Source: Niebla homalea (taxonomy: Eukaryota > Ascomycota > Lecanoromycetes > Lecanorales > Ramalinaceae). From it: 64,000 nt of DNA. The DNA lies in contig JAHGAU010000002.1 of NCBI GenBank assembly GCA_019925105.1, forward strand, positions 310,001 to 374,000, written 5' to 3'. The notes under the pieces were generated by a model. The model worked only from the letters and a program-made list of their open reading frames with translations, was not told where the DNA came from and made no database searches. Of this stretch, positions 15,536 to 55,823 are shown in pieces (position 1 is the stretch's first letter; each line of letters opens with the position of its first letter). The translations under genes were made by a program, and so were the position numbers.

Positions 15536-18397
15536 ATGGCAACGCCTGTTCAAGATATTGGACCAACGGTAGTCTACACACCGGGGACTGGCCAACAGCA
15601 TTTGGTAGAGTATGCAAATCTCTCACTTGTGATTGAAATGCATTTGATGCAAAATGCTGATAGGTGGTAATGCGTTAGTATTGTTTTCGTGCATGGTCTT
15701 TTCGGTCATCCCAAGAATACATGGACAGCTCGAACTCCCAGGAAATCTCAGAATCAAGGTAGCATCGCGGATTCTAATGAGATTTTCTGGCCTCGAGACC
15801 TACTGCCTACGAGAATTCTCACGGCCAGGATCATCACATGGGGCTACGATGTTCGAATAGAATCATTACGAACGCAGACATCTAAAGCTACAATCTCTCA
15901 ACATGCTGAAACGTTGTTGGAGGACCTGGCACGACTGAGGCTATCTCAATCGGGTCTACCAATCATCTTCGTAGCACATAGCTTGGGTGGCATTGTGGTC
16001 AAAGATGCTCTCAGTATATCCAAGCAAGAGGAAACGACTCACCTCAAGGATATTTTACCTGCTACCGTTGGTGTTGCATTCCTTGGAACGCCGCATCGGG
16101 GCTCAAAGACGGCTTCGCTAGGCAAAATCGCTTTTGAACTGAGTAAATTGTTCTTCCAAAATCCCAACATCAAGATTCTGCGAGCATTAGAGAAGCAGTC
16201 CGAGATATTTGATCACATTTCGAGAAGTTTTGCCCAGATCCTCGCCTCAAATGGAGACATCAAAGTGCATTCGTTCCAAGAGGAATTCGATACGATGGGG
16301 ATGACGATCGTTGATGCCACATCTTCAACGATCGAGTATGGCCCGAAAACGAGGGGCAGGACCCTTTTTATGCCAACCATAGCAACATGACCAAGTATTC
16401 AAATGCTGGGGATATCAATTTCCAGCGCGTGTCATCAGTCCTGGAAAGATGGGTTGAGCCTCCCTCTGCTACAATGAACAATTCGGATAAAGATCCTACT
16501 GACATATCTGATGAAGCGTATCAATCGCTGCTGGACAAATTGGACTTCCCGGACGCCAGGTCCCGAATTCAAAACGTGAAGCGCCCTTATGAGGGAACTT
16601 ATAATTGGCTCTACGATGACAAGCTAGGTTTCAAAGAGTGGCTCCAAGGTCATGATCTACGTCCAATCTTCTGGATCTCAGGCAAGCCTGGCTCAGGCAA
16701 ATCGACACTCATGAAATTTGCCTTAACGCAAGGAGCTACAAGAGACTATTTGACAGAATATAGTCAATGTGGGTGGCTCCTAATAGGCCATTTCTTTCAC
16801 GACCGAGGTAGTGAAGTACAGAAATCCAACGTCGGCTTCTTGTGTGAACTACTCTATCAGATGCTAAAGCAACGGCGTGAACTCTTCGTTTTCATTCAGC
16901 CTATTCTTCAAGACTGGGATAGGCAAAGAGACCTAAAAAGTCCAGCATTCTACGATATAGAAATATTGCAACGTGCCTTGTTTGCAATAGTCCTCCACTC
17001 AGATCATCCATTGAACTGCTGCCTCTTGGTTGACGCCATGGATGAGCATCACGGAAACCATCGAGATTTGGTGTTGTTTCTCAAAGACTTGGCATCTCGG
17101 CAGTCGAACCCGCATCTTCGCTTACGACTCGTTCTTGCTAGCCGCCCGGAGAATATCTTCTTAAATACTCTCGACATTTTTCCAGGCTTTGCAATACACG
17201 AATACACTCACACGGATATCCGTAGATACGCTGAAAGTAGATTTCGAGATGAACAGCCTATCAGCTCAGGCGAGCAGCAGGGAGAGATCACACGGCGACT
17301 AGTCAGCCAGATCGTGGACAAGTCCGATGGTGTATTCATGTGGGTCAGGCTAGTGGTGGACGAGCTGATAAAGGGACTTGGCGAAGGTGATACGCCTGGA
17401 GAGCTTGAGGAGTTACTTTTGGAGGTTCCTACGGAATTGTCTGACCTTTATGTGCGTGCGATCCGCCGTCGACCGCGAAGATCTACGACGAGATCGGTAG
17501 CAAAGCATCGAGCTCAGGCCTACATCATGTTCCGTATAGTTAGCAGCGCTCTCGAACCTATACCTCTTGAGCATGTCGTCAGGGCTTCCCTGTTTCTGAC
17601 TGGCGAGAAGCAATCAATCGCTGAAGTGGACACTATGAGCGCGGCCTCAATGCAGCGCCGTCTGAACAGCAGATCGTGCGGTCTCCTAGAAGCTATTGTG
17701 CCAGCCGATTCAAACCACGGCAGTGGCAAAGTGTGCAATTCATTCACCAGACAGTGAAGGAATTTATAATTTTTGAAGAAGGTGCCGATGTCATCAGGGA
17801 GGGTGTCAACCTGTCTGATGAAGACGGACTTGTACTCATTCTCCAGTATATCTTGGAGCGATTGAAGAGCGATTGTAGGTGGGCAGCAGGGAATTTCAGT
17901 GAGTATGCAGAGAGAGTGGAGGGTTCAGGTAAGCCTGGGGAACGTGGATTCAGCCGTCAGTGATAGAACTTGGAAAGAAAACTTTCTTCAGAGTTATCGA
18001 AGACGACATACAGGAGGAGTACAGAGCGAAGGTTGTGAAGTCTTGGAAAGATTCCAAACGTCATGTGAAAGACAAGATCGTCCCGTGGTTGCTACTTTAC
18101 TGCCTTGTGGGACTTGACCTCTCGCTTCAGATGACCCTGGGCCTGCACGCAGAATCAATGAGCGCAGATGTATCCGCCATGCTTCTTAAAATGGCTCTTG
18201 AATCACAAGCCCCTCGTCCATGGTTTTGTTTCATGGTCCTTTTAGAAGCCGGCGCTGCTGCTCATTTGACCGCAAAAGCTTTTCGGGAGATCGATGGAAT
18301 GTTTCAATATACAAAGGGAGAGAATCATTGGGACACAACGTGTCTAACAGAAGCTGAAAAGCTTTGGATCATGAAAACAATTCGATTCTGTAAATAG
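15536..18397 (+). pseudogene. Alpha/beta-hydrolase-NACHT NLR, multiply frameshifted
   Basis: Fungal NLR-like proteins control self/non-self recognition and cell death. The ATG at 15536 opens a 74-nt exon ending QQHLV; intron 15610-15678 joins it to IVFVHGLFGHPKNTW. The hydrolase domain shows the nucleophile elbow FVAHSLGGIVVKDAL and FLGTPHRGS. Its conserved end moves frame at the T5 run 16365-16369, after which NHSNMTKYSNAGDINFQRV continues. The NACHT domain has a Walker A (WISGKPGSGKSTLMKF), a Walker B-like CCLLVDAMDEH and ASRPE. A second shift near 17728-17736 (gtgtg) separates this from FIHQTVKEFI, the usual segment after NACHT. A further frame change at about 17929-17960 could be a very short intron. 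The final open segment ends at 18397 without recognisable repeats. Either a recent pseudogene or an error-affected allele. Confidence 0.8.
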
Positions 18398-43876: not shown

Positions 43877-45647
43877 TTATCTGTTCGGAGACACTTCCCC
43901 ACTCCTCTGCTTTCCCCTATTGGCAGCCAAACACTCCGTGAACGCTTCGAGATGCAGCAGATGTCCCCTCCTCAGACGTACGTACAAAGTGTACGCCGCG
44001 CTCGCAGAAGCGACAGCAATAACGGAGATGAGCGCGGGCCACCGGAACTGCGCAGGACGGGAGAAAAGGATGGTGGATGCGAACGAGAGGATTTCAAAGG
44101 CATTCTGCCACGCGGCTTCGACCGAGGAGAACGCGCCGCGGTTGTCTGCCTCCACGTCCTGGAAGAAAAAGATGGTTTCTTGATCAGTGAGTGGTTCCAT
44201 TGCAAGATTCTTCCCGGATCAGTCAAGGTAATCTGAAAACGTACCTCTTGAACAATCAGCTGCGTACAGAGCTCGAAGCCCCTCAAGCCAACACGACTGA
44301 GTATCGTCCCGCCAACGAGTCCACTCGCGGCGATGAGCGGGTCGTCACTGAGATTCCAAAACACAGCAATACCAGCCATCAGCGTGAGCACCTGCCAGCT
44401 ACTGAACCACAACCCAGCCCTGATGGGTCCAATGCCGGCCATCAGCCATGGCCCCACCCATGTCGCCAGCATTTCAAACGCGACGCTCGACGTGTTTGCA
44501 ACGCCGACCTGTGAAGCGCTGTATCCGGCCGAGAGCAAGTACGTGACCATTTGCCCGGCGAAGCTGAGGACGGTGAGGTACAGCAGCGCTCCCGCCATCG
44601 AAGGGAGGAATGCAGGATGTCGGAAGTACATTTCGAAGTCGGCGGCAGACTTTGATGTTACACCTTTGACATGGCGCCAGTGGCGCACAAATCGGCCTTT
44701 GGAGACTTGCGAGGAGCTGGACTCTGCTTCATCTGCACGTGCTGGGCGCTGTTTGGACTCCCAAAGCGCGGGGACATCACGGTAGACACGAGCGATGGCG
44801 AAGTATTCGACGCCGACCGATGCGCAATTCATGGCAAGATTCACCATGATGGCAAGCCTCGTAGAGAAGCCATCCACAAGCGCGATGGACAGCGGGCCCA
44901 GTAGCTTACAGAGCAGATCGATGCGGCGCATCTGTGCGTTCATGGTCCTCAGAGCAGTTTCATCCTTGTTGGTCACGACAACCACCTACTCTCAAGAGTC
45001 AGCATTAGCAATTGCTGACAGTCAAGATATCAGGGGCAAGTCAGGTATACCCAATCCCTTTCCACGGAGACCAGATTCATAATGGAGCCCAGCTTCTCAC
45101 CACACGCCAACGCTGCAAGAAGAACAAGCAGGGCTATCTTGCCACCATCCCCAAGTCGCGGGTGGACGGTAAGGACGTAGAAGACGACACAGGAAGCCGC
45201 CACAACGAGTCTCTGCGCCACTTGAAACACGGAATCACTCAGCATCAAAACAGCATCTCAACTTTGCAGGGTTGTCTAACCAATAGAGATCCTCACCACC
45301 TGCAAACGATCCCCCGCGTCGATGTACTGTCCAACCGCCGGCGCAAAGATGATGGCTGCAAGACCTCGCGTGAATGCGTAGACGGACATTGGCAGCAAGG
45401 TGCCAGGGAAAACCGTGGCTAGATAGAGCACGGCGCCGAACTCGAAGACGCGGGAATTCCACGTCGACAAGAAGTGCGAGACGTACAGCCTGCGTGCAAT
45501 GGTGGCCGGTCCCACGCTTTGCGATACATCCTCCACTTGCATGTGTTCGAGGAACGGATGATCCTCAGCGACGCCCTCTGGGTCGTCAACATCCAGAGAG
45601 TGTGCCATGGCGCCAGGGTTCGAGTATTTAGAGGACGAGTCTGACAT
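43877..45647 (-). CDS. Ferroportin / SLC40-family metal transporter
   Basis: SLC40 proteins export divalent iron or related metals; direction and membrane in this fungus are not known. The ATG at 45647 (MSDSSSKYSNPG) is the first in frame. Exons are 45647-45281, 45220-45051, 44985-44245 and 44158-43877, with introns of 60, 65 and 86 nt; all phases agree and give 519 residues. Typical segments are RLYVSHFLSTWNSRVFEFGA at the first membrane span, the join reading LQVVRISI and then QRLVVAASCVVFYVL, SVERDWVVVV with TNKDETALRTMNAQMRR, and GLRGFELCTQLIVQE before the last intron. About ten hydrophobic spans are seen. No lesion. The gene stands between two degenerate accessory regions yet is intact. 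Confidence 0.88.
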
Positions 45648-46857
45648 AAATTTTGGCAGCGAAATCTTATGAGGTCTGTTTACATCGGGGAAACTTGCGA
45701 GAAACCCTGGTGACTCGACCTTAATGCTCACATACACCTTATACCACCGACTGTCCGGCTTCTTTTGAAAGGGTTGGATGACAACACTTATTGGAACAGT
45801 TCAAGTGAGCTGTGGTGTTTACATGAAGGACTGCTCTCATGTCTCTTACTGATCATTCGATATTTACTGACCTGGCTAAAGAGAGCAGAGCTTTCTAGTA
45901 ATGAGTCGTGCACTTAGAATTTGAGCCGGCTAGAAGAGCTTGAAGCCCACTCTCCTCAGCCGCCTCAGTACACTGATCTTGAGTAATTTGGCTTATTGTC
46001 GGATTGAAACGATCTCAGCAATGATTGATTGTTTGATTTAGTCATATGTCACACGCATGGGACACGCATGAGTGTGATCTATGATGAATCTACCGAGCTG
46101 GTCTGAGATGTACCGCTAAGTGATTATATATACACGTGTCATGAGAGTGTCTTGGCACCGCTCGTATGATGGGTCAGTGACAACTCCATACCCGCAACAC
46201 CACCACCATGCCCGCACCTAGGCTGACATCATATGATACAAGAAAAGAAGCTTCCTTCGAAGCGTATCAAACGACAAGAAACCAAACGGGGCTAAGTCAG
46301 GCATTAGCAGCGCCGCGCCTGTAAATCTATGCCGCACCTTGACTGGGAGTAAATATAGTTAAACATGCGCTTAAGGGCGCCAACGAGACGTCGACGCAGC
46401 GCTCGCTCTTTCAGACGGCAGTCGTTCACGAACAGCAGAGTTGGGAAGGAGAGACACTGTAAGTGCCAGATATGAAGCATGAGCGTGAGAGGCCCCGAAA
46501 GCAATATCTGGTACGATGGACCCTAGGTGGCCTGGGTGGATGATGGCCGTTTCACGGCTCCAGCTTTGTTGTAAAACTGGAGAAAGAAGAAAGCGCCACT
46601 GTAACGCAGGCGTCAAGTCCATGACACCTCTTGACCAATGTCGGTCCCATCGTCTCTTAGCCTATACCACAGTGACCATCATTGTGCTTGAGGAGGCCTG
46701 TTATCATAATCGTGCTGCGTGCCTACGGTATATTTTGTCCATATTGCAATTCAGCCGCTTTCATAACCATCACACATTACTTGATTCTCCAAATGCTTTC
46801 AAGTAAGCCATAAGTACATAAAACCACTGGGTAAGCTAAGCTGAGAGTTCTGACTTC
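45648..46857. other. Intergenic, no gene recognised
   Basis: About 1.2 kb between the ferroportin start and the 3' end of the TPR receptor. The motif acacgcatg occurs twice in a short palindromic context (about 46050-46075). No coding region is supported. Confidence 0.45.
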
Positions 46858-49615
46858 CTATTCTCCATCTTCCCATATATGCAGAGCTTCAAGCGAGATC
46901 TGAGTGTGGAGATGGCCTGGGCCGAGGATTTGTTGTTGTAGCTTGACGCATCTTTTCATCAATTCAATGGCGCGATCATTGCGGCCTTGACGTTTCATTA
47001 TGATTGCCAGGCTGGCCATGCTTGCCAGCGTGTCGGGGTGCTCCTCGCTTAGCACCTTCTTACTTGTCTCCATTACCCGTACCTCCAGTTCTTCAGCCTC
47101 CTTCCAGCGTCCCTGCTCCCCATACGTTGAAGCCAGGTTGTTCATGTTCGTAAGGGTATTAGGATGCTCCTCGCCGAACAACCTTTTCATCGTCTTTAAT
47201 ACCTGTATATTTAGCTCTTCAGCCTCCTTCCAGCGTCTCTGATCCCTATACGTTAAAGCCAGGTTATTCATACTCGTCAACGTATCAGGATACTCCTCGC
47301 CGAGTACCCTTTTCCTTATCCTTAATACCTGTATATTTAGCTCTTCAGCCTCCTTCCAGCGTCCCTGATCGTTATATATTGAAGCCAGGTTGTTCATACT
47401 TATCAGCGTGTCGGGATGCTCTTCGCCTAGCACCCTCTTCCTTGTCTTTAATGTCCGTACCTGTAACTCTTCAGCCTCCTTCCAATATCCCTGATTGCTA
47501 TATGTTGAAGCTAAGTTACTTATACTCTTCAGTGTGTAAGAAGCCTCCTCGCCTAGCACCCTTTTTATTATCTCTACTAACCGTACCTGCAGCTCTTCAG
47601 CCTCCTTCCAGCGTCCCTGAGAGCCATATGTTAAAGCCAGGTTGTTCATGCTCTGCAGAGTGAAGGGATCCTCCTCCCCTAAGATAATCTTCTTCTTGTC
47701 CAATATTCGTTCGTTCCAAGCTGCCGCTTTCCGATAGAGCCCAGATGCTTGAAGATAAATCGCACCCCCTGTACTCGCACCCAGGAGCTCGGTGTTCGCG
47801 ACCTTGTATTGCTCCGCAAAGGCCTCTAGAGATTCAATGTGGCTGACAAATTGACCACATTGGATCCACTTTCGTGGAGACCAGGGATCATCGATTTCCT
47901 CGAAGGCTTTGCAAACAACGCGTATAGCTGCTTCCAGCCACGGTCCTCGTTCTGCATTGGCCATAAGCCTCGACCGGAGTAGAAGTTGGACTAGATCGTG
48001 GATCCGCATCGTACCCCTAGATCCCTCCAGCGTACAAGCCGCAAGAGATAATCGCTGAACCTCTTGAACGGCTTTGGAGAGGCGTACATGAGACCGAAAT
48101 AAGTCCACTACTGCTTCAAGCTCGTTCACTGCTCGTGATGGGGTACATCACGCCAGTTTCCCTGGTGCAGAGCGTTACATCCTTGCGTGAAGATATTGAT
48201 TGGGATATATTCAGGGTCGCAGAAGCATAGAACCCGAAGAAGAGTCAAAGCATCAGGGGCTGTCGTTTGGAGCTTTGTCAGAGCCGGGGTAAAAGTAGCT
48301 GCTACCGATTTCTCTTCATGCCGTGAGAGATCATTCTCCCACGAAAGGATCTAAGTTTCGGTCAGCTTCTCCTCCCAATAGTTCATGATCTTTGCCTACC
48401 TCAAGTGCCTCCTCGGTCTCATATATCTGAAGAATCGCGTTCATGCTACTTCCCGTATCCTTTAAATATGATGCGGCTTGGTCGATCGCCAGAGGCAGAG
48501 CTCCTACGAACCGAACAACCTGCTCAGCATCCGCATAGCTCACTTCCCTTTTGATGTCTCGCTCTATTTCAGCGCCGGTCAAGAGCATTGCCACAGCATC
48601 GCGGACCCCTGGCGGTTGCAAAGCAAGCTGGGATAGCGCACCAGACGCAGTGAATACTTCTGCAATCTTCGCCGTCCGAGTAGTAAATAAAAGCCTTCCC
48701 CCACTGTTTCTTCGTGGAAGCATGTCACGAAGCATCGCAGTCGTCTCCTGAGTCACATTATCAAAGATAATTAACCAGCTCCTCGCACCCGTCGGATCTT
48801 CCAACCAAGCTCGTGCTATCTTTGGCTTGGTGACCTGATCCAGAGTGCACCATCCCGGGAGACGGAGCAGATCCACCAGCTCCGAGAAGCCCCGAGTCAA
48901 TTTCCCCTCAGACGCCGCAGACACCCAAAAGACATAGGCATACTGGCTTCTCTGGAATGCAAGAGTCGCGAATTTCAAGGCCAGCTGTGTTTTCCCTATG
49001 CCTGGCATACCATATATGATACAGCGGGCTGGGGCGTCTCCCTTCGATGTACTGAACACGCGATCGATCTGCTCTAGCTCATCGTCTCGGCCCGTGAAAT
49101 TAGAGGAGAGGATGGAGTCGGGCAACTCGCAGATCGTTGGCGGGAGCTTGTGATCTATGCATGGTCAATTGTATATCTATCTCACAAAGCTCTGCATCAT
49201 TTAGACCTACCAGGATTTGCATCGAAATGAATAGAGCCGCCCTCTGTGTTCATGTTATTTCCCACAAACTGCCCACCTCCTTGGCTATTGCAGTCTCCAG
49301 CAAACACTTTCGCCGCATGCGTACTGCTTGTCTGCATCTCTCGGTGGCGCGCTATGTCAGTAAGGTGGTCGTGCACTTGCTTGTGGAGCAAAATGATTGA
49401 GCCTCGTCCCGGTAGCTCTCGATAATGGCATATAGTATCCCTCCGCCTTCTTCGTTGTCTTGTACAGTAGAGCCTTGAGTTCTATTATCAATGAAAGAGC
49501 TGTTGGCGATATTATACACGAGAGGAAAGCACCCAATGGCCTCGAGGTCGAGGACAGAAGTCGTTTTCCACCGCCAAGACTTAAGTATCTTCACTTCACC
49601 GTGGTCCCTTACCAT
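46858..49615 (-). CDS. NB-ARC / TPR NLR-like receptor with N-terminal amyloid-type motif
   Basis: Likely a signal-transducing STAND ATPase of fungal immunity or incompatibility. In order: an N-terminal segment from ATG 49615; a Gly/Asn/Ser-rich motif at 49307-49224; intron 49210-49155; the NB-ARC domain (CIIYGMPGIGKTQLALKF Walker A, WLIIFDNV Walker B, LLFTTRT, GALPLAIDQAASYL); intron 48399-48351; a winged-helix-like part; then five well-conserved 42-residue TPRs plus a degenerate sixth, of the kinesin-light-chain type (NNLASTY..QGRWKEAEEL), to the stop at 46858. Two frame breaks: at the G4/C4 run 48140-48143 (one more base restores phase before VNELEAVVDLF) and near 49397-49398. The N-terminal extent is uncertain because of the second break. 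It is divergent from the hydrolase at 50184, which carries the matching motif. Confidence 0.78.
47000..47690 (-). repeat. 126-nt tandem repeats encoding TPRs
   Basis: Five consecutive units of 126 nt, each containing the near-identical stretch cttcagcctccttccagcgt on the plus strand, encode 42-residue tetratricopeptide repeats. High DNA-level similarity between units indicates recent amplification or concerted evolution. Confidence 0.85.
49224..49307 (-). other. 28-residue amyloid-type motif of the receptor
   Basis: The segment begins VFAGDCNSQGGG and ends NTEGGSIHF, just before the exon joining to NB-ARC. It aligns without gaps with the C-terminal motif of the neighbouring hydrolase (51447-51530): F2, G4, S8, G10, G11, G16, G23, G24, S25 and F28 are identical, and D/N5, Q/N9, S/T21 and I/M26 are similar. 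Confidence 0.65.
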
Positions 49616-50183
49616 TACAAACAAGTCCAAAAATTCCAGAAAGATCCAGTAGGGATATTCGGAGCTTTCCAAAGTTCACGTCTGATTTTTTGAGCAAATT
49701 GGAACTCAGGATGTGGATTCAATAAAGGACAAGCGAAAAATGACTTCAGGGTCTGGCTGGATACGAAAATGACCTACTCACTTCTTTGGTCTGTATGCAA
49801 TATTCATTACGGTCATGCTCTGTACTAGCTGAGTAGTGGTGTCGATCAAATAGATGACGGTACCTGTTGGAAATGGAGGAGGGGGTCTCCTTCTGGGTCT
49901 ATCTCGAAAAATACATTATATATAGTATACTTTACTAATAATAGGAAATTAAGGTAACATAACCTTCGTATAGAGTGGTAACTAACCAGTGCTGTCAATT
50001 GTAAGAAATGGTCACTTCATAAGTGGTACATGAGCAGGTCATTTACGGTATCCAACCAGACCCTCAGTTCCTCGACCCACTGCTCTGCGTATTTTTGCCA
50101 AGAAAAATGCCCGGACAATTGTTGTGGCCAAGCTGTTCACATTGCTCTGTATGAAAGAATAAGTCTGCCATCGTAGGACCATC
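49616..50183. promoter_or_regulatory. Shared divergent promoter region of receptor and hydrolase
   Basis: 568 nt between the two divergent starts. It contains an AT-rich island (about 49906-49990) with alternating TA steps (attatatatagtatac). A shared promoter would allow co-regulation of the two proteins; this is inference from layout. Confidence 0.35.
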
Positions 50184-51536
50184 ATGAGCGCTATCATGCC
50201 CAAATTAAGGTTTTGGCACGGCAAATCCGAGCCTCAAAGCATGAGCGAGCCCATCTCAACCTTAGGCCTGCGAATAGTGAATCCGGACCGAGTCGAAGCA
50301 GCGATTGAGTGGGTATGTCCTTGGCCGCTATTATTAGTGCTTTCTGGGCTGATTCGCAATCCAGCATCGTATTCATTCACGGCCTCACGGGCGATCGAGA
50401 GTCCACATGGACTGCGAAGGGCGCTGCGGCCTGCTGGCCAGAGTCGCTCCTCGTTAACGATATACCTCAAGCAAGGATTATCATGTACGGCTACGATGCC
50501 GACGTGCTTAATTTTTGGTCAATGGCATCTCAAAACACGGTCGGCGATCATAGTCAAAAGTTCTTGACGTCGCTCGCCAATCTAAGAGATAGCACAAACA
50601 CTGTTGGTTTAAGGACTGTCAGGTGGGCTCTTCAACTAATTGTTCTTCCACAGAACACAAGACCTCTCGCATTCGTTGCGCATAGCATGGGTGGAATCGT
50701 TTGTCAAGATGTAAGGTGGCATCTGCCTTGTTCGAGGACGAAGTCTGATATGTGGTAGGCATTGTTGAAATCGAAAGGCAATGCCGACCGACATACTCAA
50801 CATATCCTTGAAGAGACAAGGGGCATTTTCTTCATGGGAACCCCACACTGTGGCTCAGGTCTTGCAGAATGGGCAGTCGTCGGTAGCAAGTTTCTCCAAT
50901 ACTTTCGTCGGATTAATCATAGAGCGCTGGCGATTCTGCAAGAGGAATCTGAGGTCATGGAAAGAATACGGCGTGAATTCCACACCATGTTGCGGGCTCG
51001 AGACAACAGCAAAGACAAAGAGATTGCAATCATATGCTTTCATGAGGAAATCCCAGTGCGGGCTATTGGACAAGTAAACTTTAGCGGTAACAATTTGGAG
51101 ATGTCTGGATACTGACTCTTAAAAGGTTGTGCCACAAGGTTCGGCAATACTTGACAGGTATACATCGATTCCCATCCATGCGAACCATATGGATATGACC
51201 AAGTTCTCGAGCGATGAAGATCCCGACTATCGAAATGTACTTTGCGAGCTTCAGAGGCTTGTTCAATCTCTTGAACCACAACTGAAAAGCGTGCCACCCT
51301 TTGCATCTTCTGCGTCGTCTACATCGTCTAATCTCGAAGTAAAATCTCACTATACTCCTCGAAACGAGGGTTCTTCCGTGGGGGAACAAGACCAAACCAC
51401 TGTGCATGAAATAGACACTTCGCATCAGCCGACAAGATCGGTCAACAACTTTTCTGGCAACTTTTATAGTAACGGAGGTAAAATAACTCAGGGGGGTGAA
51501 TTTCATTCCGGAGGCGGATCGATGACCTTTTCATGA
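50184..51536 (+). CDS. SesB-like alpha/beta-hydrolase with C-terminal amyloid-type motif
   Basis: Predicted serine-hydrolase effector of an NLR signalling pair. Exons 50184-50308, 50365-50710, 50759-51073 and 51126-51536 give 398 residues. The domain opens with VEAAIDIVFIHGLTGDREST; the nucleophile elbow is FVAHSMGGIVCQD; the strand-helix GIFFMGTPHCGSGLAEWA follows; and PIHANHMDMTKFSS carries the expected late His. A possible extra 51-nt intron (50603-50653, GTTGGT...CAG) has no stop and keeps frame, so a 17-residue length variant could exist. A Ser/Thr-rich linker leads to the final motif at 51447-51530, followed by one Ser and the stop. The gene is completely open. It is homologous to the hydrolase part of the fused NLR at 15536. 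Confidence 0.82.
51447..51530 (+). other. 28-residue amyloid-type motif of the hydrolase
   Basis: Starts NFSGNFYSNGG and ends SGGGSMTF, at the extreme C terminus after a flexible linker. Its position (effector C terminus) and the position of its partner (before NB-ARC of the receptor) match the geometry of known fungal amyloid signalling motifs. Confidence 0.65.
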
Positions 51537-53189: not shown

Positions 53190-55823
53190 CTAAACTGCTG
53201 AACCCGTGTTGGATCCTGCATTACTGCTGCCCCTACTTCTTGTCTCGTTGCTCTCGCTTCTCTCTTCTCGACGGATTCTACGTGCGAGCCGGTTCCACCA
53301 GGTCTGAGGTACCTTCAGTCCCCCTCGCTCGAAATCATATATCAACCATCCGATATTTTTTTCAACTGAAGTAAAACAGAGATGTTTAATGCGGCCAAGG
53401 AGGGAGAACCAGAGCGCGAAGGAATGATAGAAAGACAATGAAGGCCGTGTCTTAGGATGATCGATTATGTCCAAGACCAGAAAAGTGGAGCCAAGCGCAA
53501 AACCACCCAGCTCAATTAACAAAGGCATGCTTCCAGCAAAAAGCTGAAAAGCCGTTTTGTAGTATAGCTTCCTGTTGATCACCGCGCTTCGGCTTTCACT
53601 TATCGTCGAGCCTGTATCCGTAGATGAATGGACGGAAGGCTGAGAGTGCTCGATAAGCTCGGTCATTTGCACATTATCAGCCTGCTCAGATTCTGTAGTT
53701 GGCACTACAATGTCGACCTCGCTTGAGTTCCCTGTTGCCTGAGATGCTGTTGCTGCAATAGTCGTTGCTGGAATTTGGCTCGCTTCTTGCGTTTAGCCTC
53801 TTTTTGTCGAGAGTGAGCAGCACGGCAATGGTGTTAGGCAAACAGGTCAGAAAGCCCAATACGTACAATATATTTACCTTCCACGCTGTCCAGAAGAGGG
53901 CTAGACCACCATGGAACCGCTGATGCAACATTCAGAGCCAGTAAGATGCCGAACGTGAGGTTATTGTCGTGTTGAAGCCATACTTGATACGCTGAGCGAA
54001 GGGCTATGGTAGACAGCCAGACGAGTAAGCCCGAAAATACAATTGGGATGATTATGCTTGCAACCCATGACGGGAATAGACAACTCCCAGAACATGGTGG
54101 TTGACACTAGCCCCCCTTCCGTGAATTCTTTAGCATTCATACCGAAATATGAAGATACGAAGGCAAGAGGGACGTAGATACTCGCGAGTATGGTCAGGAT
54201 AAGGGAGCGCGTGCCTGAATTCAAATCGAGTTGTTCCCTGAGCTGGAGACGATGTTTTATGACTTGAGGGGGAGGAGAGGGGGGTTTCAGAGTCGTGGTG
54301 AGCTTACCATCGAGTGGAGCGCCATTCGACAATTATCAAGATCTTTGAGCAGAGAGCTCAAATCCGATGCGTCTCTATGCAGGCGGCGCATTCGGACAGC
54401 CCACCGCGCACCGGGTATAGATGCAAGCCTGACACCACTTACCTTTGCGTTTGTCCAAGTCTCTATCTGCACGATTGCGGTGACCAAATGATCACGGCTT
54501 TTCTCTATTTGGTCTTCCAGGTGATGAAGATATTGAAATTTGCTTCTATGAGGATGGACTCGACCATGGAATTTCTAGCTAAACCTCAGTTCCTTACTAT
54601 GGTAACGACAAGAACTTTTGCTCACCGCATCTTGCACAAGCGAAAAGCGACTACTGACAAAACTTTGAAGTTGATGACGCATAACTTGATACACAGCAGA
54701 GATGCAGTTCATAAGCTCATGCAAGGGACTCCAGTTGCGCAGTGGCGACCGCATCATACCTTGCTTGACCCGGATAGATATTAAAGCTTCGAAGAGTACG
54801 TCATGAGTGATAACGGATGAGCAGGCTATCAAGCATTTTGGCATTGAGCGCCGCGACGTTACACCGTTTGGATTGATCAGGACCCGGATGAACTCAAACT
54901 CTGGAGGTTTTTGGTATGGTCGCTTAACGGTCTGGTGATAGAAGTCATAAATGAAGGCAATGGAGCGTACAGATTGGAGGACGGGTCCAGGGGCTGGCCG
55001 GGCTACGTCAAAGAAGTTGGGGATGCCAAATTCACTTGACCTCAACACTTGCTCATGTTAGTAGGGAGAAACTCTTCTTGTTGAAAGTGCCAAACCACAC
55101 TTTTAGATGGTAAACCTAGCTCAGGTAGCGGCATCTGCGTCTCTGCTGTTCTCAACATGATTTCATAACTTTCGAAGACCTTGCTTTGAGAAGCTGTGGG
55201 TAGTGAACTGCTATCAACTCCAGCTGAAGCGAGCAAGAGCCGTGAGAGGAGTTCGTCAAGCAGATTCTTCTTATTGCCAATTGTGATGCAGCTATCACCA
55301 AGTGAGCCATGTGAGAACGTCCAAAACACATAGGCCTTGCATGCTGTTAGTGAGCTGAGGAGGACATACCTAACCATGAACGCATTATCTGCTTGACAAC
55401 CACGCACAGCTTGTATCACTTGTTGTGGCAGCCTATATCCATCAGAACTGGACGTAGCTTCGTGAATGCGCGATGCCTCTTCTGTTCATTCATGAGACCC
55501 CGTAGTCCAGAAATACGATAATCCCATGTAAGCACATAACTACTATTGCTTGGCTCCGGTAGTCGTAGCCAGAAGAATCCAGCATCATGATTCCTCAGTC
55601 TAGAGCAAGGCTTGCTCAAGGGTCGATACAATTGTCCCAATTCTGGATCGATAGTCTGTAATTTCTCATAAACAAGGTCATGCTGGTAGTTTACGGCGAA
55701 ACTTGCTCCTGTTGGGTCCGGGTCAATGAAATTATTGATATTTCGGTGTGAGCGAATCCCATAGGGAACGGATCCGATCTCATAATCACGGTAGCGAAAG
55801 GAGGCGTCATTTGCTGATGTCAT
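53190..55823 (-). CDS. CorA-like metal-ion transporter locus, with frame lesions
   Basis: CorA/Alr-type channels carry Mg2+ or related ions. From ATG 55823 (MTSANDASFRYRDYEIG) a soluble N-terminal domain continues through intron 55115-55048 (TACTAAC branch site) and intron 54625-54575, into the long helix FQYLHHLEDQIEKSRDHLVT. The C-terminal part has TM1 with the hallmark GMN (ASIYVPLAFVSSYFGMNAKE) and TM2 (IIIPIVFSGLLVWLSTIA). Two breaks: near 55419-55422, where MDIGCHN must shift frame to reach VIQAVRGCQADNAFM, and at 54064-54066, where one base fewer joins the start of TM2 (FWELSIPVM) to its rest. A further hydrophobic ORF, 53705-53190, may be a C-terminal exon or a separate gene; I could not connect it securely. 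Confidence 0.6.

Follow-up and report, generated by a model that had tools for sequence, protein, structure and literature searches.

The window analysed here, 64 kb of the Niebla homalea genome (C2:310001-374000; assembly of 50.6 Mb in 52 contigs), holds two divergent neighbouring genes: a SesB-like (DUF676) serine esterase on the forward strand and an NB-ARC/TPR NOD-like receptor (NLR) on the reverse strand. They carry a homologous motif of 28 residues at the C-terminus of the esterase and the N-terminus of the receptor. The motif is conserved in relatives, chiefly of lichen-forming fungi, has an internal repeat of 13 residues and is joined to the esterase core by a variable linker. We consider it likely that the two genes form an NLR/effector pair, in which the receptor would activate the esterase by templating a cross-beta fold of the shared motif. 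A cell-death or incompatibility module of this kind had been proposed in a preliminary description of this DNA; profiles and relatives bear out the gene pair and its homologous motif, while amyloid folding, templating and either output are inferred. That description had also called the two-gene module complete; two genes are indeed present, but "complete" has to be dropped, given that the NLR frame changes at 48129-48178, a stretch which relatives code through, unless an intron of 50 nt is removed there.

The shared motif and its conservation

The motif segments and the linker lie at the following positions of the window.

51447..51530 (+): effector-side motif, residues 353-380 of 381, followed by one Ser (51531-51533) and the stop codon
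51291..51443 (+): variable linker from hydrolase core to motif, identity 0.34, predicted local distance difference test (pLDDT) below 60 in the matching part of the model of relative P0002
49224..49307 (-): residues 11-38 of the NLR, N-terminal motif ahead of NB-ARC, in register with P0122-P0127 and P0134

The two segments align in register without gaps, with 10 of 28 positions identical, 15 positive in BLOSUM62 (five of them conservative), and F2 and F28 retained. The preliminary description had claimed ten identities, at least four conservative positions and both aromatics for 51447-51530 (+) against 49307-49224 (-), whose translations are as it gave them. Its "last 28 residues" is correct for the C-terminal position and not for the exact end, owing to the final Ser; the NLR segment, said to lie directly before NB-ARC, does lie before it, but about 25-40 residues ahead and with an intron between.

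The best ungapped 28-residue pairs of both proteins are the motif register (score 41) and its +1 shift (44). Among 100,000 shuffles of the two segments kept in register, 8 equalled or beat the score of 41, and 44 was reached, with any register allowed, by 2 of 5,000 shuffles of the protein ends (40 and 50 residues). On its own, the match within the window is modest; it is conservation in relatives that settles the reality of the motif. The motif DNA is identical at 42 of 84 positions (50%) and is thus not a recent copy, so that recent duplication of one motif was rejected.

Of 234 hydrolase matches 120 were listed, the close set being the 15 that are at least 53% identical (P0001-P0009, P0016, P0040, P0046-P0049); for the NLR, 120 of 268 matches were listed, the best-scoring 14 being P0121-P0134. 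Twelve of the 15 close hydrolases have the motif as their C-terminus; of the other three, P0005 and P0006 are cut off ahead of it and P0016 has an unrelated tail. Among the best-scoring 14 NLRs, eight have the whole motif (that of P0121 behind hydrolase sequence) and P0130 has the second half only; the start of four others lies downstream of the motif, and the N-terminus of P0128 is a different one. The next matches, P0135-P0149, have no motif: 14 of these 15 start downstream, and the distant P0141 has a different N-terminal region. Lichen-forming fungi supply the nearest named proteins among the matches listed (Protoblastenia, Lepraria, Fulgogasparrea, Xanthocarpia, Lecanora, a Caloplaca-like species, Psora and others).

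A hidden Markov model (HMM) of 11 effector tails, run on 242 proteins, ranked the effectors and P0121 first and NLRs P0122, P0127 and P0130 next; below these, the other NLRs alternate with SesB-like hydrolases that match weakly at their C-termini. With this model, the eight single-gene NLRs with a whole motif, that of the window included, match from residue 12 (P0122 from 19), and their E values range from 3e-5 to 0.25. The converse NLR-side HMM recovers 12 effector tails, likewise at E 3e-5 to 0.25. Aligned by hhalign, the effector and NLR motif alignments score 37.9 without gaps, against a maximum of 18.6 in 150 column shuffles; the same test on four PP motifs from this genome, in which two of the effector side were aligned with the remaining two, gave 34.0 against a maximum of 15.5.

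These results bear on whether the likeness is compositional, i.e., whether two independent Gly/Asn-rich tails merely look alike. Both segments are rich in Gly, Ser and Asn, and identity within the window pair taken by itself is just 36%. Yet none of the 150 composition-keeping column shuffles reaches the observed score, the register and the F/G frame hold across species, with six invariant columns in fifteen motif sequences, and conservation is absent from the adjoining linker: over four hydrolases, mean identity drops from 0.76 in the core to 0.34 in the linker and returns to 0.70 in the motif. Shuffles and conservation hence lead us to reject chance or composition as the cause, as far as sequence allows, and we regard that explanation as extremely improbable.

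Consecutive locus tags on equally long contigs join both genes in four of the seven close named hydrolases among the matches listed, as follows.

Xanthocarpia ochracea, Q9171_005755/_005754: both motif halves visible
Lecanora helva, ACLMJK_009429/_009428: neither gene model shows the motif
Fulgogasparrea decipioides, Q9201_007298/_007299: effector half only, the NLR model starting after the motif
Caloplaca-like species, Q9220_000827/_000826: effector half only, the NLR model starting after the motif

The other three have no NLR partner among the matches listed. In Lepraria neglecta, a single annotated protein (P0121, OEA41_009869) runs from a hydrolase end through a partial motif and an NLR motif into an NLR, and is either a true gene fusion or a tandem of genes merged by annotation.

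Weakly similar Gly-rich tails also occur in other ascomycete SesB-like hydrolases (P0015, P0030, P0060, P0064, P0089). A search of 106 proteins for related tails returned five at E < 0.1, all at most 40 residues from the C-terminus, with none in 40 shuffled runs; this is suggestive of a wider tail family among SesB-like hydrolases, though too weak to claim one. When other effectors with the tail of P0004 were sought, only P0004 and P0003 were found (three candidates), a weak negative given the word filter.

The esterase and receptor genes

The remaining features of the locus are as follows.

50184..51536 (+): SesB-like alpha/beta hydrolase gene, five exons, 381 amino acids
50184-50308, 50365-50602, 50654-50710, 50759-51073, 51126-51536 (+): hydrolase exons, from frame, splice sites and relatives
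50684..50686 (+): predicted catalytic serine Ser132 (AHSMGG), from conservation and nucleophile-elbow position in the model
46858..49337 (-): NB-ARC/TPR NLR gene, splice model open to the stop codon, 774 amino acids
49337-49211, 49154-48400, 48350-48179, 48128-46858 (-): NLR exons of the splice model
48403..49041 (-): NB-ARC domain, Pfam match above cut-off, E 7.5e-10
47026..47681 (-): TPR array, 126-bp unit in 5.2 copies with 77% matches; TPR_10, TPR_12
48129..48178 (-): frame-change stretch of 50 nt, putative GT..AG intron or frame interruption
49338..50183 (no strand): intergenic region between both start codons, 846 bp, from sequence

The hydrolase matches DUF676 with 26.9 bits (cut-off 20.3), and the five relatives used for comparison share 61-74% identity with it. 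Three of its introns were placed by frame and splice sites. The fourth, 50603-50653, is 51 nt long and in frame, and P0001 keeps a similar stretch; it was called because relatives P0002 and P0003 do not have those residues. A PDB sequence search gave one significant relative, the esterase BlEst2 (6wpx, E 4e-6).

Conservation predicts Ser132, Glu236 or Glu237, and His266 as the catalytic residues. In an alignment of 58 rows (A2, numbered after P0002), Ser141 is present in 56 of 56 non-gap rows, Glu245 in 57 of 58, an acid at 246 in all 58 and His275 in all 58. This alignment was used for an AlphaFold2 model of P0002, which is 67.6% identical to the window hydrolase. The model has an alpha/beta hydrolase core, with pLDDT of at least 90 for 200 of 386 residues and weaker parts at about 91-110 and 181-210, and Ser141 sits directly between strand 135-140 and helix 142-155, i.e., at the nucleophile-elbow position. 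From residue 321 on, the C-terminal tail has block-mean pLDDT of 36-47 and is thus unstructured in the monomer.

The NLR has NB-ARC followed by a TPR array, the domain order of an NB-ARC/TPR NLR according to Pfam and tandem-repeat analysis. Its identity to the seven relatives used for comparison is 53-66%, and six of them align from residue 1; this indicates no hidden N-terminal effector domain. The receptor has no effector domain of its own, its motif beginning at residue 11 as in the motif-bearing relatives, and a Pfam scan of the frame of the first exon matched no family. Four TPR units picked from the window have a mean identity of 64%, and those of three relatives with at least four units 82-91%. 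High internal similarity is known for part of the fungal NLR repeats, a pattern which the window NLR and its relatives fit (PMC9815663). The NLR of X. ochracea (P0125) matches the bacterial model FxSxx_TPR (NF040586) with 402.7 bits (cut-off 300), so this fungal receptor resembles bacterial NB-ARC/TPR proteins.

The putative NLR introns (GT..AG) measure 56, 49 and 50 nt, and the third, 48129-48178, is doubtful. It may be a lineage-specific intron, an interruption of the receptor in this isolate, or an assembly error. Relatives such as P0125 and P0129 translate a conserved stretch across it, which the window DNA partly still resembles. The machinery could thus be ancestral and decayed in this isolate, with the NLR broken and the esterase alone active. 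In addition to the frame change, the window NLR motif has Cys and Met at two conserved inner aromatics. However, the 50-nt segment is bounded by GT..AG, and once it is omitted the frame continues and the model stays open over 774 codons; an assembly error is possible, and the motif is conserved across species regardless. Decay therefore seems rather doubtful to us.

The intergenic region may act as a common divergent promoter. It contains an unassigned open reading frame of 107 amino acids (49352-49675, -), which was rejected as a portion of the NLR because the start of motif-bearing relatives lies further downstream and its top Pfam hit has only E 0.16. The flanking genes, 43972-45800 (-) and 53961-54332 (-), include ferroportin-like and CorA-like transporters.

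Motif class and proposed mechanism

The 13-residue repeat is found on both sides of the family. On the effector side (11 sequences) it has z = 3.5, with 0 of 1,000 column shuffles reaching it, and on the NLR side (eight sequences, without P0121) z = 4.0, with 1 of 1,000; other offsets from 8 to 16 have z of at most 2.1. Two short rungs per motif copy, as a beta-solenoid or beta-arch, are plausible.

Five fungal motif families, HRAM, sigma, PP and PUASM 1-2, served as a dataset in 2025 (PMC12261475). Membership in PP (PF17046, the profile described as "misnamed SesB" in PMC12261475), sigma (PF17106) or HET-s (PF11558) was rejected by Pfam profile: none of the 15 motif members matches at E up to 10, a setting in which HMMER filters drop most matches above about 0.1. 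As PF11558 is the double-repeat HET-s model, the HET-s/HRAM test covers that form. In comparisons with small sets (four PP sequences, five sigma sequences and two printed PUASM peptides), the score against PP was reached by 104 of 150 column shuffles on the effector side and 134 of 150 on the NLR side. Against sigma the counts were 43 of 150 and 5 of 150, the latter a weak resemblance, and against the two PUASM peptides 11 of 150 and 78 of 150. The patterns tested were FxGx(x)NxGLQLxGxNxGxL for PP and FxGxGxQxxGxGxF for PUASM.

The motif could nevertheless be a strongly diverged member of sigma, PP, HRAM or PUASM, which would leave the mechanism unchanged. The low counts for the NLR side against sigma and the effector side against PUASM favour this, as do, by eye, one repeat (FN..GG) like a sigma submotif and an NLR-side GxQ like the PP core; logo-only classes such as NLR34 (PMC9815663) lie outside the comparison. 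The empty Pfam result, the counts against PP and that of the effector side against sigma (all from small sets) argue otherwise, and PF17046 does detect PP motifs elsewhere in the same genome. On balance we find a known class rather unlikely. We tentatively propose instead, as a possibility falling somewhat short of probable, a further fungal amyloid-motif family, of 28 residues and two rungs (13 + 13), which would be conserved among lichen fungi, separate from the PP pathway that this genome also has, and would link an NB-ARC/TPR receptor directly to a SesB-like esterase without a HeLo pore-former, as judged against PP, sigma, HET-s and PUASM.

Under the templating mechanism, the NB-ARC/TPR protein would be the sensor and would stay inactive until oligomerisation is driven by a ligand, for which the TPR array is the presumed binding site. 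Oligomerisation would align the N-terminal 28-residue motifs into a stacked cross-beta fold, probably of two rungs, which would then template the matching motif in the flexible tail at the C-terminus of the esterase. The esterase would cluster and be switched on; membrane lipids are its likely target, and regulated cell death the likely outcome. The 64 kb yielded no third gene bearing the motif, so the esterase may act by itself or together with a partner encoded elsewhere.

Alternatively, NLR and esterase would be joined, with no templating, by a non-amyloid homotypic adaptor whose small beta structure has a fixed stoichiometry. The computed results do not separate amyloid from other homotypic beta assembly. 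Against this, the motif is rich in Gly, Asn and Ser, bears a repeat and is disordered in the monomer model, and in both proteins it sits precisely at the end where the known fungal amyloid pairs have their motifs (PMC3321046, PMC5485727). Such an adaptor is, in our judgement, distinctly improbable.

Several observations weigh against the templated pair. The NLR frame is interrupted unless the 50-nt intron is spliced out. The window hydrolase tail is matched only at E 2.2 by the NLR-side HMM and the window NLR only at E 0.052 by the effector HMM, which indicates greater divergence in the window pair than in the family. Pair-specific co-evolution was looked for, and no sign was seen that the motifs of partners are more alike than those of partners from other loci (P0121 excluded). 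Conservation in other adjacent pairs, on which the preliminary description had let its proposal depend, was checked as far as the listed relatives reach and does not refute it; both motif halves are seen in only one of the four tag-linked relatives, X. ochracea, and L. helva has no motif in either model and an NLR model with a different N-terminus. The low pLDDT of the motif in the P0002 model speaks neither for nor against amyloid. A third motif copy or HeLo-type bearer was not found in the 64-kb window, where an intron-split motif would be invisible, and Chaetomium, discussed below, does have such a third gene in HELLP. We still consider the templated pair the likely explanation of this locus.

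Lichen fungi live with algae and bacteria. If the proposal is true, a further orthogonal motif family with its own enzyme widens the receptor-to-effector addressing code, and the locus makes testable a SesB-like lipase acting alone, without the HeLo membrane carrier seen in Chaetomium. Among the papers listed, preprints and most subscription journals being outside the scope, none concerned this motif or lichen-fungal amyloid NLR pairs.

Related loci and comparison with known systems

The genome contains related systems. At C28:663907-664784, an effector frame ending in a PP motif adjoins an NB-ARC NLR whose preceding frame carries PP: the motif at C28:664383, near the end of its reading frame, matches PF17046 above cut-off (49.8 bits), and that at C28:663907, in the frame just before the NB-ARC frame, stays below it (19.7 vs 23.2 bits, E 0.07) and is PP by eye. 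This is an in-genome example of the known effector/NLR layout. On C14, a PP motif above the PF17046 cut-off (C14:1020707) follows pieces of a SesB-like hydrolase (C14:1019676-1020787, +), and another above cut-off lies 10 kb off on the opposite strand (C14:1010568-1010645, -); the genome profile searches gave no NB-ARC match there. For sigma (PF17106), the genome search gave nothing above cut-off, the best match having E 0.052. No second copy of the window motif was found, either by a search confined to the window and 20 loci, or genome-wide by one that is insensitive, as even the NLR-side motif 2 kb away was not recovered.

In at least six places (C1, C2:390 kb, C9, C10, C23 and C41), a SesB-like segment appears to adjoin an NB-ARC segment of the same strand, as taken from coordinates and not gene by gene. 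A SesB/NLR pair suggested by coordinates on C32 was rejected, an ankyrin-looking sequence following SesB and no common motif being visible by eye. Within the window, a SesB-like (DUF676) frame at 15671-17757 (+) is overlapped and then followed by a NACHT-type NTPase frame (NPHP3_N), and is probably a one-gene SesB-NACHT receptor, a cis counterpart of the divergent pair. One-gene and two-gene layouts are both known in fungi (PMC3321046, PMC5485727).

The proposed mechanism would resemble that of PNT1/SBP, and the locus shares the architecture of CgPNT1/CgSBP (PMC7885112) and of sesB/STAND pairs (PMC3321046). The CgPNT1/CgSBP/CgHELLP system of Chaetomium globosum has clustered genes, an NB-ARC/TPR NLR of PNT1 type with an N-terminal motif, and, in CgSBP, a SesB-like putative lipase sharing the motif of the NLR (PMC7885112, PMC5485727); CgHELLP targets CgSBP to the membrane (PMC7885112). 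The motif there is PP, whereas the window motif is not PP by profile. In sesA/sesB/het-eN of Nectria haematococca and relatives, a SesB hydrolase and a STAND protein share an end motif of short repeats, and NB-ARC and TPR variants of these systems are reported (PMC3321046). Sigma, however, consists of three submotifs, of type A/B, that together span some 40 residues (PMC5485727), compared with two 13-residue repeats over 28 in the window motif, which has no PF17106 match and no profile similarity to sigma on the effector side, with a faint one on the NLR side.

HET-S/NWD2 of Podospora anserina (HRAM) likewise has adjacent genes with the motif at the effector C-terminus and the NLR N-terminus, but it combines a HeLo pore-former, 21-residue repeats and NACHT/WD (PMC5485727), in place of the esterase, 13-residue repeats and NB-ARC/TPR seen here. 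PUASM pairs also link an enzymatic effector with a C-terminal motif to an NLR N-terminus, although with a PNP_UDP effector, NACHT NLRs and the pattern given above (PMC9815663), and their two printed peptides have no clear profile match. The C28 pair of the same genome is alike in placing a motif-ending effector frame beside an NLR frame that starts with the same kind of motif, and differs in that its motifs are PP.

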